From contig CP030868.2 in NCBI GenBank assembly GCA_004010835.2, positions 1,550,001 through 1,614,000 of the forward strand: a DNA stretch of 64,000 nucleotides. Direction: 5' to 3'. The position numbers were made by a program, and so were the translations under genes. Shown one piece after another: positions 5,766-43,002 of this stretch; position 1 is the first letter of the stretch; each line of letters starts with the position of its first letter. Under the pieces are notes generated by a model. That model was not told the DNA's origin. It worked only from the letters and a program-made list of their open reading frames with translations, and made no database searches. The stretch comes from Oenococcus sp. UCMA 16435. GTDB lineage: Bacteria; Bacillota; Bacilli; Lactobacillales; Lactobacillaceae.

Positions 5766-5850
5766 TTTATTTTAAAATTAATTTTCATTTAATATTTGTT
5801 TAAGCACACTTTAATTTTCTGAGAATAATCTGCATTGTAAAGGAGATTTC

Positions 5851-7305
5851 ATGGATTATATCAAGCGTGCTTTTTTGTATCTTCGTCGAAAAATTGGACG
5901 GAGTTTACTATTAACTCTGGTTATTACAGCTATTATGACTTTTGTCTTAGCTGGGTTGATTATCCAAAACGCTGCTCTAACGGCTGTTGATAATAGCAAA
6001 GATTCAGTCGGTACAACAGTGGCCTTATCCGCTAATCGACAAAAACTATTCAAACAAAACCAGAGTCCTACAGGGACTTCAGGCTTTAAAAGCACCAATC
6101 AAGTAATTATTAGTCAAAAAACGGCTAATAAATTGGGTTCTTTAAGTAACGTTGCTGCTTATCAGATTACTGCAACAGCGAGTGTTAATGCTTCGTCGTT
6201 TACATCAGTAGAAACTAGCAGTTCTACTAGCAGCAAAGGCGGTTTTTCCGGTACACAAACTACCGAAACCGGTGACATTAGTATCTCTGGGGTTTCGACA
6301 ACCGCGGCTGATTCGAATTTTAAGAACAAAAATTATGTGATTACCAAGGGTCGTGGAATTAAGGTATCTGATAAAAACACAAATAATGTTGTCATCGAAA
6401 AGACCCTCGCTTCAGATAATAAAATTAAAGTCGGCCAGACAATTAAAGTCAAAGATTCCGACGGGGATGTAAAGTCATTAAAAGTTGTTGGAATTTACCA
6501 AGCAAAGACTTCAAGTTCTACCAGTCTAACAGGAGATGATCCTTCAAATACAATTTATTCCAGCTATACTCTTGCTTCAAGCTTAGCCGGCGATAATGGA
6601 AAAGTTTCCGCTGTTACTTATACTTTGACTAATTCCAGTAAGGAAAAGGCTTTTGTTAAAAAAGCCAAGAAATTAATTTCCAGCAAGTTGCAATTGACGA
6701 CCTCCGACGAAATTTATGAACTATTATCCAGTTCGGTTAAATCGATTGAAAGTATTGCTTCAAAAATTGTTTGGATTGTTGCAATTGCCGGAATTGCTAT
6801 TTTGAGCTTGATTTTGATTCTAATGATTCGCGAACGTAAACATGAAATCGGTGTCTTAATGTCATTAGGTGAAGCAAAAAGCAAAATAGTCGGACAGATT
6901 TTTATCGAAACAATTTCGATTTTAATTATTTCTTTGTTTTTCGCCGGTATTTTCGGCAATTTATTTGGCAATGTAATTGGAAAACAACTGGTTAGCCAAG
7001 AAACAACATCAACACAAACATTGAGCAGCGGAGCCGGCGCCCCAGGTGGCGGTGGAGCACCGAGCCAAGGGAATACGACCAGCAAAGGAACAACTAGAGG
7101 AGCTGGTCGGTCTGCTGGCGGCGTTAGCCAATTAAGTTCAACTCTGACAGGCAGTTCCCAACTTAACAAGCTTTCAACTCATTTGACTATTGGCACATTA
7201 CTAAAACTAGGTGCTTTTGGATTAGTAATTGTCGGAATTGCGACTTTGCTTGGTTCGATACCGATTTTGAGTTTAAAACCAAAAAGAATTCTAATTTCAG
7301 AATAA
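5851..7305 (+). CDS. ABC transporter permease, FtsX/MacB type
   Basis: A 484-residue permease with one N-terminal membrane segment (about residues 17-38), a large Ser/Thr-rich extracytoplasmic domain, and three C-terminal segments (about 305-328, 348-378 and 452-475). This is the MacB/FtsX layout used by lipoprotein, peptide and antimicrobial exporters. RERKHEIGVLMSLGEAKSKI is the typical cytoplasmic coupling stretch. Between the last two segments there is an unusual Gly/Ala/Ser/Thr-rich low-complexity loop (GAGAPGGGGAP) that most relatives lack. The Shine-Dalgarno AAAGGAG precedes the ATG. The ATPase partner starts 10 bases downstream. Confidence 0.9.
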   Translation: MDYIKRAFLYLRRKIGRSLLLTLVITAIMTFVLAGLIIQNAALTAVDNSKDSVGTTVALSANRQKLFKQNQSPTGTSGFKSTNQVIISQKTANKLGSLSNVAAYQITATASVNASSFTSVETSSSTSSKGGFSGTQTTETGDISISGVSTTAADSNFKNKNYVITKGRGIKVSDKNTNNVVIEKTLASDNKIKVGQTIKVKDSDGDVKSLKVVGIYQAKTSSSTSLTGDDPSNTIYSSYTLASSLAGDNGKVSAVTYTLTNSSKEKAFVKKAKKLISSKLQLTTSDEIYELLSSSVKSIESIASKIVWIVAIAGIAILSLILILMIRERKHEIGVLMSLGEAKSKIVGQIFIETISILIISLFFAGIFGNLFGNVIGKQLVSQETTSTQTLSSGAGAPGGGGAPSQGNTTSKGTTRGAGRSAGGVSQLSSTLTGSSQLNKLSTHLTIGTLLKLGAFGLVIVGIATLLGSIPILSLKPKRILISE

Positions 7306-8056: not shown

Positions 8057-9376
8057 ATGCTAGATATTAAATATTTACGGAATAATCGAGATGAAGCCAA
8101 TCAACGTTTAATTGATCGAAATGTTGAAGATGGTGTGTTAGATAAATTATTAGCCGATGATGAAAAACGTCGTGCTCTAATTCAAAAATCGGAACAGTTA
8201 AAAGCCAAACGTAATCAGGTTTCTGATCAAATCGGAGCAGCTAAACGGATTAAAGACGATTTGGCCGCTCAAAAAGCTATCAAGGATATGCAAACTGTTT
8301 CTGACCAAATTAAGGATTTGGATAAACAATTGTCGGAGGTCGAAGAGTCTGTTCATTCTCAAGCGGCTCATCTACCTAATCTGGCCGATTCGCGAGTACC
8401 GGTTGGCCCAGATGATTCATACAATATCGAACAAAGAAAGTGGCAGCCAAGTGATCTTCAGGGACGCCCGGCAGCTTTTTCCAAAACACCAGCGTGGTTG
8501 AAAGCTCATTTTGACATCGGTGAAGATCTTGGTATTTTGGATTTTCAACGTGGCGCAAAAGTTTCCGGGGCACGTTTTTTGTATTACGTTGGTGCCGGTG
8601 CCCGTTTGGAACGAGCGGTCTACAATTTTATGCTTGATGAACATCGTCGCGAAGGATATACAGAATTATTGACTCCTTACATGGTCACTAACGAGTCGAT
8701 GTATGCAACTGGGCAGTTTCCAAAATTTGTTGACGATGCTTATGAAGTCGGTAAAAATCAGTCAATGACAATGATTCCGACTGCCGAAGTTGCTTTGGTT
8801 AATTGGCGGCGTGACGAAGTTTTAGATGAATCCGAATTACCTTTGTATATCACTGCTTTATCACCGGCATTTCGTCAAGAAGCTGGCGCTGCCGGAAAGG
8901 ATACCCGTGGCTTAATCCGTTTGCATCAGTTTAATAAAGTTGAGATGGTTAAATTTACCAAGCCGGAAGATTCGTATGACGAATTGGAAAAGATGACTGT
9001 TAATGCAGAAAATATTTTGCAAAAACTTGAATTGCCCTATCATGTGATTCGTCTTTCTACCGGAGATATGGGTTTTGGTTCGGCGATGACTTATGATTTG
9101 GAAGTTTGGTTCCCAACTCAAGACAAATATCGTGAAATTTCTTCTGTTTCCAATGATGAAGATTTTCAGGCACGCCGTGGTCATATCCAGTATCGTGATT
9201 CAAAGACTGGCAAGCTTCATTTTGTTCATACTCTAAACGGCTCTGGTTTAGCTGTTGGCAGAACTGTTGCGGCTATTTTGGAGAATTATCAGAATGAGGA
9301 TGGAACGATTACTATTCCTGAAGCTCTTCGTCCTTATTTTGGTGAGGATAAGATCAGCAAGGAAAACGCGAGATAA
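8057..9376 (+). CDS. serS: seryl-tRNA synthetase
   Basis: Class II synthetase that charges tRNA-Ser. The N-terminal long antiparallel coiled-coil arm (about residues 28-110) grips the tRNA extra arm. The catalytic core has motif 2 ([21 protein letters not shown]) and motif 3 ([16 protein letters not shown]). The 439-residue length is normal. The first methionine matches the family start MLDIKYLR. Unlike many Gram-positive serS genes it has no T-box leader. A near-consensus -10 box adjoins the ATG. Confidence 0.97.
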
Positions 9377-9427: not shown

Positions 9428-9482
9428 TTTTATCTTCGTTTTATCTCTCTTTTATCTTCCTTTAATCTGTCAATTGAATAAT
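9428..9482 (+). promoter_or_regulatory. phased hexamer array and -10 box of putative sRNA A
   Basis: Four hexamers, TTTTAT at 9428, 9439 and 9450 and TTTAAT at 9461, are each separated by exactly 5 bases (11-bp period, one helical turn). They are followed after 10 bases by the -10 box AATAAT (9477-9482). No -35 box is present, which suggests an activator-dependent promoter. The hexamer-N5-hexamer design is that of OmpR-family response regulators, notably the TTTAAG-N5-TTTAAG box of streptococcal CiaR. Which regulator binds here is unknown. Confidence 0.6.
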
Positions 9483-9488
9483 TAAAAC

Positions 9489-9628
9489 TGTTCCAAAGGA
9501 CAAGTTAGTAAAAAAACAAGTCCCGACGAACACTCTCCAATAATAAAATATCCCTTCCAAATAAATTAAAAACTCTCTTCATAATAATTAATCCCAAAAA
9601 ACGCCACCCCAAAGGCGTTTTTATTTTT
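9489..9628 (+). ncRNA. putative small regulatory RNA A (csRNA-like)
   Basis: Predicted transcript of about 140 nt in the serS - gpm pseudogene gap. A 5' hairpin can form (outer GTTC/GAAC, inner GGAC/GTCC). It is followed by a C- and A-rich stretch with little self-complementarity, containing ACTCTCC, TATCCCTTCC and ACTCTCTTC. The end is an intrinsic terminator (AAAACGCC / GGCGTTTT plus T run). The CCCTTCC and CTCTCC segments could pair with Shine-Dalgarno sequences. A paralogue with the same order of elements lies at 13285-13411 on the other strand. No ORF of note is present. The RNA nature is inferred, not shown. Confidence 0.6.
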
Positions 9629-9667: not shown

Positions 9668-10320
9668 TTACATAATTGTTGTATTTCCACTGTTATCGAA
9701 ATAATTAAGATAAGCAAAACCGTTATAACTTTCAATTCTGAAATTTTCATCGTCGTTGCTTCCAATAATCGATGTCGACATATTTTTTAATCCGGAAATA
9801 TTTTCGTTATTTGTTAAAGCTTTTATACCTAGCTGGCTGATTGCGCCATGGGAAAAAATCAAAATATTTTTGTTGTCTTCGATTTGACGGATGATTTTAA
9901 GAATTTCATTTTTAAATCTTTTTCGTGCGTGTACGAATTCTTCTATTCCGAGTGCGGATAATCGTGGATCATCTTCTCGAAGGGAGAACTTTGCAAAAAG
10001 TTTCGGATATTTTTGGATTATTGATTCTTTTGTTTGGCCTTCCCAACTTCCAAAGGATACTTCTCTAAAAGCTTGATTGACTATAATTTCTTTTTGGTAA
10101 TGAACTTTGCTTTTTTCGATTGTTGCTCTAGCCGTTTTTATTGATCTGTTTGGGGGCTGGTATAGATTTTTTCAAAGTTGAACTTATCAAGAAATTTTGC
10201 CAGTGCAACATACTCGCTTTGATTGGATTTTAAAAGTGGCGAATCGCCTTTAGCGCCCTGTAATTTCTTTTGTAAATTCCAAATTGTTTTTCCGTGCCTT
10301 ACAATGAATACTTTTTTCAT
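9668..10320 (-). pseudogene. histidine phosphatase (phosphoglycerate mutase-like), single frameshift
   Basis: The gene begins MKKVFIVRHGKTIWNLQ, the RHG phosphohistidine motif of the GpmB-like phosphatase family. The frame breaks after IYTSPQ (about 10155, in GCCCCCAAAC) and goes on in another frame with NRSIKTARATIEKSK. It continues through FREVSFGSWEG to LIFSHGAIS, which carries the second catalytic His, and stops at 9668. One extra base in the C5 or A3 run restores a complete protein of about 216 residues. It is therefore a very recent pseudogene, a slippage allele or a sequencing error. It is divergent from the ComA-like gene. Confidence 0.85.
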
Positions 10321-10363
10321 AGTATTTAAGATACATTTAATTCTGGAATGATAAAAGTGTAGC

Positions 10364-11134
10364 ATGAATGCTTATGAATTTTTGAATTTAAGGAGACCGG
10401 AAAAACCCAGAACATCCGGTTTAACTATGATGCTTGATAAGGGTTTAGGCATCAAAGCACTTGATGATATTTTAAGTACATCCGCTGATTATATTGATTT
10501 TGCCAAATTCGGATGGGGAACCTCAGCTGTAATTAATCGCGATTTGATAATTAAAAAAACCAACAAATACAAGGCTGCCGGAATTATGCCTTATCCAGGC
10601 GGAACATTGCTTGAAGTTGCCATCCTAAAAGGAAAAGTGGACCAATTTTTAGAGGAAAGTCGTGAATTAGGATTTAAAGCAATTGAGGTGAGCGACGGGT
10701 CAACCGAAATCACAACGCCGGAGCGGGCCAAAACGATTAAAAAAGCCAGAGAAGCAGGCTTTTATGTTATTTCCGAAGTTGGCAAGAAAAATCCGGTTTT
10801 AGATCATAAATTATCCGTCTCGGAAAGATTGGAAACAATGAAATCGGATTTAGAATATGGTTCAAACTACGTTCTAATCGAAGCCAGAGAAGCTGGGAAA
10901 GATATTGGAATCTATGATCCGAATGGAAATATTATCGAAGACGAATTAGAACAACTTTCTAGTCTTGGAATATCTAAGTTAGTCTTTGAAGCGCCATTAA
11001 AAAAGCAGCAAGCCGAATTGATTTTAAAATTTGGCAGTCAGATAAATTTGGGTAACATTGCTTCAGATGAGGTTGTCTCTTTAGAAACTCTGCGGGAAGG
11101 GTTAAGGGGAGACACAATCAGCATGCTTAGTTAA
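10364..11134 (+). CDS. phosphosulfolactate synthase-like protein (ComA family)
   Basis: ComA-family TIM-barrel proteins join sulfite to phosphoenolpyruvate, the first step of coenzyme M synthesis in methanogens. Homologues of unclear role (such as Bacillus YitD) occur in bacteria. The 256-residue product shows DFAKFGWGTS, MPYPGGTLLEVA, AIEVSDGS, ISEVGKK and VLIEAREAG, the ordered family motifs whose Lys, Asp, Glu and Arg line the active site. No ComB or ComC gene is nearby, so coenzyme M synthesis is not implied. A -10-like GATAAA ends 8 bases before the ATG and no Shine-Dalgarno is visible. Confidence 0.8.
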   Translation: MNAYEFLNLRRPEKPRTSGLTMMLDKGLGIKALDDILSTSADYIDFAKFGWGTSAVINRDLIIKKTNKYKAAGIMPYPGGTLLEVAILKGKVDQFLEESRELGFKAIEVSDGSTEITTPERAKTIKKAREAGFYVISEVGKKNPVLDHKLSVSERLETMKSDLEYGSNYVLIEAREAGKDIGIYDPNGNIIEDELEQLSSLGISKLVFEAPLKKQQAELILKFGSQINLGNIASDEVVSLETLREGLRGDTISMLS

Positions 11135-13284: not shown

Positions 13285-13411
13285 ATAAAAAACACCGAAT
13301 AAAATTCGGTGTCAGGGATTTCTTTTATAGAGAGAGTTTTTATCCATTTGGAAGGGATAGTTAATTTTTATGAAGATTGTTCTCCAGGATTCTGCTTAAC
13401 CCCTTAGAACA
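13285..13411 (-). ncRNA. putative small regulatory RNA B (csRNA-like)
   Basis: Paralogue of the putative RNA at 9489-9628, on the opposite strand and about 127 nt long. The 5' hairpin (TTGTTCT/AGAACAA) is followed by an unpaired stretch sharing CTATCCCTTCCAAAT, ATAAAAACTCTCT and AAATCCC with copy A. It ends in a strong terminator (ACACCGAAT / ATTCGGTGT plus T run, 13285-13312). The terminator stem differs completely in sequence from that of copy A while the single-stranded core is conserved. That is what selection on a regulatory RNA core would give. Confidence 0.6.
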
Positions 13412-13417
13412 AGACCC

Positions 13418-13472
13418 ATTATCAGAATCGAATATTAAAGGAAATTAAAAAGGAAATTAAATGAAGATTAAA
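13418..13472 (-). promoter_or_regulatory. phased hexamer array and -10 box of putative sRNA B
   Basis: Minus strand TTTAAT hexamers begin at 13472, 13461, 13449 and 13439 (spacing 11, 12, 10). After exactly 10 bases comes GATAAT (13423-13418). The 10-base gap is identical to that at sRNA A. The array lies back to back with the rpmB promoter. Confidence 0.6.
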
Positions 13473-42860: not shown

Positions 42861-43002
42861 CCTCTTTTATACCTCTTTTATAAACCTTTTTTAAACCTCT
42901 TTTAGGCCCCTTATCAGCCTTACTCTCCCAAGGCTGATAGAAGTTTATCAAGTACCTTTTGTCTGTTTATCAAGTACCTTTATAAATTCTGTACTTGATA
43001 AA
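42861..43002 (+). other. theta-type plasmid replication origin
   Basis: Four CCTCTTTTAT-like repeats occur at 42861, 42872, 42885 and 42896 (AT-rich, 11-13 bp apart). A hairpin TATCAGCCTT/AAGGCTGATA (42912-42939) follows. Two direct iterons TTTATCAAGTACCTTT (42944 and 42966, 22-bp period) and one inverted copy GTACTTGATAAA (42991-43002) come next. An AT-rich region plus 22-bp iterons ahead of a Rep_3 gene is the standard layout; the inverted copy lies where the initiator would repress its own promoter. Confidence 0.8.

Follow-up and report, generated by a model that had tools for sequence, protein, structure and literature searches.

The locus described here raises the question whether an array of phased hexamers, followed by a short non-coding unit, is the promoter of a small RNA (sRNA) gene of the kind controlled in streptococci by the stress regulator CiaR. 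It lies in a stretch of 64,000 nucleotides from Oenococcus sp. UCMA 16435, referred to below as the window, and its predicted RNA is designated RNA A. The positions of all features are collected in Table 1.

Anatomy of RNA A and its sibling copies

The first-pass annotation had listed four hexamers with N5 gaps, a 10-base distance to AATAAT and no -35 box, followed by an unpaired C-rich core, including CTCTCC and TATCCCTTCC, and by a closing intrinsic terminator. All these elements were found again: the array, its spacing and the lack of a -35 box were read directly at 9428-9482, the terminator was recovered by a terminator scan, and the core corresponds to the open middle of the predicted fold. 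The description of array and core was therefore retained, while the view of a single locus had to be abandoned, since the genome has four copies, RNA A among them.

A scan with the sigma-70 consensus detected no promoter at 9428-9482. From the position of the -10 box, transcription would start at about 9489, seven bases past the box, and the unit is about 135 nt long; ATG, GTG and TTG are all absent from 9489-9624. The predicted fold of 9486-9628 is composed of the 5' hairpin and the terminator, separated by the open middle, and has an energy of -21.7 kcal/mol, against a mean of -8.74 (sd 2.56) for 200 shuffled sequences (z -5.06). No covariation was observed in the 5' hairpin, where two-sided changes were found in the alignment at none of the 7 pairs. 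On the basis of the fold, the C-rich segments of the core are proposed to be anti-Shine-Dalgarno segments.

The arrangement goes beyond chance expectation. TTTWAT-N5-TTTWAT is found five times in the window, compared to 0.66 expected, and three of the five occurrences overlap within the RNA A array; three in-phase TTTWAT hexamers with N10-NATAAT were never produced when double strands as long as the window were simulated 20 times with a first-order Markov model. RNA A begins shortly past the stop codon of ORF 8057-9376, read as serS from its translation. On its 3' side, the minus-strand ORFs 10138-10365 and 9668-9862 look, from their translations, like a broken phosphoglycerate-mutase-type gene.

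The genome, of 2.03 Mb, contains the core motif TATCCCTTCC six times, and the reversed control lacks it; four occurrences mark the sRNA copies A to D, and two fall within coding sequence. Around the -10 box, copies A, C and D are identical at 198-200 of 200 positions. The three matching copies of a close genome (G003) agree with each other at 197-199 of 200 positions, while blastn identity between the two genomes is 96%, and the flanks of A, C and D match between them. Since identity is higher within than between genomes, and the flanks match, the pattern is one of concerted evolution of the copies, rather than of movement. Copy B is diverged and contains two ATG triplets. The copies other than A are not located behind serS, and comparison of A with a phage collection by blastn gave no match.

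Table 1. Features of the RNA A locus, its sibling copies and one candidate array. Positions refer to the window, unless preceded by C1.
Feature	Position	Strand	Sequence or structure	Basis or remark
Candidate further member	5777..5829	+	ATTAAT, TTTAAT, TTTAAG, TTTAAT, 11-bp pitch	AATAAT after 8, not 10, bases
RNA A operator, proposed CiaR site	9428..9466	+	TTTTAT 9428-9433, 9439-9444, 9450-9455; TTTAAT 9461-9466; N5 gaps, 11-bp pitch	sequence; 10 bases (9467-9476) to -10 box
RNA A -10 box	9477..9482	+	AATAAT	sequence
Small RNA A (copy A, 9489), predicted transcript	9489..9625	+		fold; covariance-model match 9489-9597; no start codon
RNA A 5' hairpin	9489..9532	+	TGTTC...GAACA, inner GGAC/GTCC	predicted fold; conserved arms
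RNA A core, predicted unpaired	9533..9595	+	CTCTCC 9533-9538, TATCCCTTCC 9549-9558, CTCTCTT, AATCCC 9590-9595	fold; conserved in alignments
RNA A intrinsic terminator	9597..9622	+	9-pair stem and T tail	terminator scan
Small RNA B (copy B, 13411), diverged copy	13287..13412	-		between tRNA gene and ribosomal-protein gene; best-scoring match of model R1
RNA B promoter	13418..13472	-	TTTAAT, TTTAAT, TTTTAA, TTTAAT, 11-bp pitch, N10, GATAAT	
Copy C	C1:1244935			
Copy D	C1:362813-362921	-		

Conservation in Oenococcus and the adjoining ciaR gene

The search was extended to seven Oenococcus genomes, five of which (G000, the source of the window, to G004) are near-complete, while G005 and G006 are 68% and 65% complete; G001 is O. 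kitaharae-like, as judged by its RNAs. With A as query, blastn (E <= 0.01) gave matches in six of the seven genomes, reduced to five after dropping a 21-base chance match in G006. The matches dropped (L048 in G006 and L058 in G002, E 0.007) were devoid of promoter and hairpin. A covariance model, R1, was built on the core, leaving out promoter and terminator, from 10 sequences (103 positions, 6 pairs). It detected 4, 3, 3, 4 and 3 copies in G000-G004, that is 3-4 in every near-complete genome and 17 in all, with E 1.7e-8 or lower, values which are partly low by construction, because most of the 17 copies are in or near the training set. One G002 copy, C1:157616, was outside the training set and had been missed by blastn, its close G001 relative being in the set. 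R1 gave no match in the incomplete genomes G005 and G006, and two weak matches in G003 (E 0.044 and 0.058) were excluded from the counts. Over 301 genomes of the family, R1 matched only the five Oenococcus genomes, one of 40 genera, in a search with stricter filters and 13 candidates scored per genome, by which distant relatives could be lost.

The promoter geometry is shared by all 16 compared copies of the 17: four slots at 11-bp pitch, with TTTAAT nearest the promoter, and, in the -10-box alignment, exactly 10 bases to AATAAT, GATAAT or GATACT. In the remaining slots the sequence differs among copies (CTTAAC, GTTTAT, CTTTAC; TTTTAA in the B copies), and the seventeenth copy has the two near slots and the N10 spacing. 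Even the diverged copies, from genomes resembling O. kitaharae and O. sicerae, retain the promoter slots together with the 5' arm, the core and the terminator, and the C-rich motifs are the best-conserved unpaired part of the RNA in the alignments. Loss of core and hexamer spacing in sister strains had been named in advance as an argument against the reading; both are kept in the sister species, and the reading withstood this test.

In all five near-complete genomes copy C is located directly 5' of a gene for an OmpR-type regulator, with a histidine kinase gene next to it and a ribonucleotide-reductase-like gene further on, beyond extra ORFs in some species. The genome has six genes for OmpR-type regulators. 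The one adjoining copy C is a reciprocal best match of streptococcal CiaR for all five proteins tested, at 48-52% identity. In the regulator tree it forms a group, supported at 100/99, with the five CiaR proteins and a further 15 relatives. The five remaining OmpR-type regulators of the genome fall apart from this group, with a long-branch warning on their placement. By these sequence comparisons it is a CiaR ortholog, and its gene is called ciaR here. Among NCBIfam models the best one, with a cut-off of 279 bits, scored 184, and no CiaR-named model was found in the best 25 of 96; similarly, PDB sequences yielded general OmpR-type relatives, with no CiaR-named entry in the best 60 of 301. For O. 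oeni PSU-1, one system of the Cia cluster is reported in Table 3 of PMC3040137, the cluster being unsupported by the tree of that paper.

The recognition helix differs from the streptococcal one, being VVNIYLNNLRRKL in Oenococcus and VVEVYVSKVRKKL in streptococcal CiaR; the Leuconostoc-group regulators have VVNIY[LI]NNLRRKL. In the best matches from genus g43 of family f4, the helix reads VVEVYVSK[IV]RKKL at eight of nine loci and VVEVYMSKIRKKL at the ninth. This genus was taken as Streptococcus because its helix is the CiaR helix given in Table 1 of PMC3091779.

Sites at ciaR and htrA, and relation to known RNAs

Sites of the same architecture were searched 5' of ciaR. Within 260 bp, NTTAAN-N5-NTTAAN is present at 31 of 36 Leuconostoc-group loci, while spacings of 2-4 and 6-11 give 0-3 of 36; four loci are duplicate contigs, which leaves 28 of 32 distinct ones, and L151, probably from G006, is included. 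All 31 sites have TAnnnT at exactly N10, and their final half-site base is mostly T or C. Among 34 loci from elsewhere in the Lactobacillaceae, N5 was obtained 14 times, but N11 also 12 times and N3 9 times, which makes the scan uninformative for them. At nine streptococcal loci it gave none, so that the known system provides no positive control for it. In the five near-complete Oenococcus genomes (L054, L055, L051, L046, L047), RTTAAT-N5-TTTAAT follows a TGTARAAT box, 3' of the sRNA terminator and just before the start of ciaR, whereas the Leuconostoc site lies upstream; the Oenococcus position would perhaps suit negative feedback.

Two HtrA-type genes are present in each of the seven genomes, and in the five near-complete ones all ten have a site with two half-sites. 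The first has ATTAAT-N5-TTTAAT before GATAAT or TAATAT, the second KTTAAC-N5-TTTTAT before AATAAT, GATAAT or AATGAT. In the two incomplete genomes, none of the four HtrA-type genes has a convincing site. It was the recurrence of the two-half-site pattern in all five near-complete genomes, at the promoter of a trypsin-like protease gene, that pointed to this gene type. On a genome-wide scale, the three-half-site pattern, with two mismatches, was found 90 times in the source genome, compared to 93 in the reversed control, and the two-half-site pattern, with one mismatch, 21 versus 29 times; corresponding values for the latter in G001-G006 are 16 and 6, 14 and 6, 21 and 17, 14 and 9, 9 and 10, 23 and 40. 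As the genome-wide patterns are not above reversed controls, lone half-site matches were not counted as regulon members. The array at 5777-5829, which precedes an FtsX-type permease gene at 5851, may be a further member.

The first-pass annotation had also proposed a CiaR-type regulon outside streptococci. The proposal gains support from the ciaR ortholog beside one copy, from the common geometry at the ciaR loci, from the sites which the two htrA-type genes have in five genomes, from the retention of core and spacing in sister species and from the Rfam comparison reported below, in which csRNA ranks first for RNA A, though under the threshold.

A second class of hexamers at 11-bp pitch, TTTTAT/CTTAAT with N10 and TAnnnT, was observed in the same genome, on the minus strand of G000:C1 near 326503-326568, 449260-449298 and 463651-463689 (L007, L016, L017) and at 486528-486560 (L143). 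Three of these arrays are followed by a hairpin with TGTAGCC and by a stem resembling a terminator, as in a second sRNA family, and a protein ORF is found at the fourth. Within the window, 42551-42598 matches the Bacillus-plasmid RNA of Rfam (RF01691) with 48.1 bits, above the cut-off, and looks like part of an integrated plasmid-type stretch; TTTTAT-N5-TTTTAT occurs nearby, at 42865.

The closest known RNAs are the streptococcal csRNAs, products of the ccn genes. In PMC3091779 they are described as occurring in two to six copies per genome, with half-sites at N5, N10 to the -10 box and a terminator, often with two stem-loops and with unpaired segments complementary to Shine-Dalgarno regions. 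The Oenococcus RNA has the same multiple copies, spacings and terminator, and the same predicted pair of stem-loops and unpaired segments; a CiaR ortholog is encoded as well, and sites are found at htrA and ciaR in the same genus or group, much as csRNAs, htrA and ciaRH are listed as CiaR targets of S. pneumoniae in PMC8317062. The terminator lies within 250 nt of the -10 box, RNA A is noncoding, and the predicted fold leaves free sequence fit to pair with translation start regions. The half-sites set the two apart: csRNA promoters have two TTTAAG half-sites, and the Oenococcus ones four, of the form TTTWAT. In PMC3091779, matches lacking the final G were discarded, this G being reported as essential for pneumococcal CiaR; it is not kept in TTTTAT/TTTAAT. 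The Rfam model of csRNA1, RF02379, is the top match of RNA A, with 27.3 bits against a cut-off of 57 (E 0.1). RNA B has no csRNA match, its lowest E being that of GcvB (0.005, below the cut-off), and at gathering scores no Rfam family was found at A or B. Because of the TTTWAT half-sites and of the missed csRNA cut-off, the Oenococcus RNA is best called a variant resembling csRNAs, short of proof that it is one. It would work like a csRNA, very probably under CiaR.

A second resemblance is to LhrC1-5 of L. monocytogenes, multicopy RNAs dependent on LisR and linked to cell-envelope stress, with three redundant CU-rich (UCCC) motifs, according to PMC4132741. Multiple copies, dependence on a two-component system for envelope stress and redundant CU-rich motifs would be common to both; LhrC, however, depends on LisR and has its motifs in two loops and a linker, while CiaR is proposed here and the motifs are all in one linker. 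Rfam LhrC gave no match in the window, nor at A or B with E up to 10. CiaRH is described as apparently not found outside streptococci (PMC3091779), and the csRNA inventory is of streptococci only (PMC8186281); no paper joining Oenococcus and csRNA was found in the open-access literature.

Proposed action, candidate targets and alternatives

In the mechanism we propose, CiaR would bind the TTTWAT repeats and switch on the sRNA copies, the signal being envelope, acid or ethanol stress. CUCUCC, UAUCCCUUCC and AAUCCC, unpaired between 5' hairpin and terminator, would then pair with the Shine-Dalgarno regions of mRNAs and block their translation, while the same regulator would raise HtrA-type proteases. 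The role assigned to the three motifs is suggested by analogy with the pneumococcal csRNAs, which repress comC additively by pairing near its Shine-Dalgarno sequence and start codon, as reported in PMC4507080 and PMC8186281.

Candidate targets were searched as GGAAGGG-N1-10-ATG and compared with a reversed control. A clear excess is seen only in G000 (9 versus 3) and G003 (14 versus 5); the other five genomes gave 10 versus 10, 8 versus 8, 4 versus 2, 4 versus 2 and 4 versus 3, and at 7 of 15 loci inspected the ORF past the ATG is under 60 codons. The best of seven scored candidates, the start at G000:C1:935894, has a predicted pairing of 13 nt with RNA A at -23.0 kcal/mol; values of -22.0 and -20.9 were obtained for two further candidates, one from G003 and one from G004. 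The background of 48 window starts has a mean of -12.2 (sd 3.5) and a best value of -19.9, a comparison favouring G000:C1:935894, as this candidate was picked for its match. The product, of 217 aa, is a membrane-anchored protein for which Pfam gave no match at E <= 0.01, and its gene precedes that of a protein read as LCP-type. Twelve nt of the pairing are kept in G003, and the pairing is absent in G004 and G001. The Shine-Dalgarno sequence of this candidate (L301, near 1455-1502) is contained in a short ORF of 14 codons, and the stop codon of this ORF overlaps the target ATG, an arrangement which suggests translational coupling; in G003 (L302) the 14-codon frame looks interrupted.

We regard the unit as probably a gene for a trans-acting sRNA, one of a set of CiaR-activated siblings blocking translation by anti-Shine-Dalgarno pairing. 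The sRNA may be real and its TTTWAT repeats read by an OmpR-type regulator other than CiaR (WalR-, Kin- or Ycl-like). Six OmpR-type proteins are indeed encoded, TTTWAT differs from TTTAAG, and direct repeats at 11-bp pitch are usual for the OmpR family. This assignment is nevertheless quite unlikely, given that a copy adjoins ciaR in five genomes, that ciaR of related genera has the same N5 and N10, that N10 is the CiaR promoter rule and that htrA, a reported CiaR target, bears a site. That the unit represents a repeat, a mobile element or merely the end of serS with its terminator, instead of an independent sRNA gene, is very improbable. The near-identity of A, C and D and the start of A near the serS stop would fit such an origin, but matching flanks and the higher identity within genomes indicate concerted evolution, diverged copies retain the elements from the promoter slots through 5' arm and core to the terminator, and the other copies are elsewhere than behind serS.

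A CiaR-driven sRNA could also act by protein binding, RNA sponging, or activation or stabilisation of mRNAs, with no anti-Shine-Dalgarno action. The target search speaks for this, GGAAGGG ahead of ATG clearly exceeding its reversed control in no more than two of the seven genomes and the best pairing being lost in G004 and G001. We consider it unlikely all the same: the C-rich motifs are the best-kept unpaired part of the RNA, and UCCC-type motifs bind Shine-Dalgarno regions in other low-GC bacteria, as stated in PMC4132741.

If the preferred reading, CiaR-activated siblings acting on translation starts, is followed further, CiaR-family regulators could have gained multicopy anti-Shine-Dalgarno sRNAs more than once. 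We put this forward tentatively, as something short of probable: CiaR, sibling sRNAs and htrA would form a circuit common to streptococci and Oenococcus, in which the Oenococcus RNAs would be of independent origin, recognition helix and half-site would have changed together, and the near-identity of the copies would result from gene conversion.

A CiaR circuit with sibling sRNAs in the wine bacterium Oenococcus would extend the streptococcal circuit to a design of the wider lactic acid bacteria, and would offer a non-pathogenic setting in which to study the reason for so many copies of near-identical sequence. As half-site and recognition helix differ in a matched way, they would provide a natural test of specificity change in OmpR-type regulators. 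For malolactic fermentation, the circuit would name concrete RNA regulators of stress tolerance.
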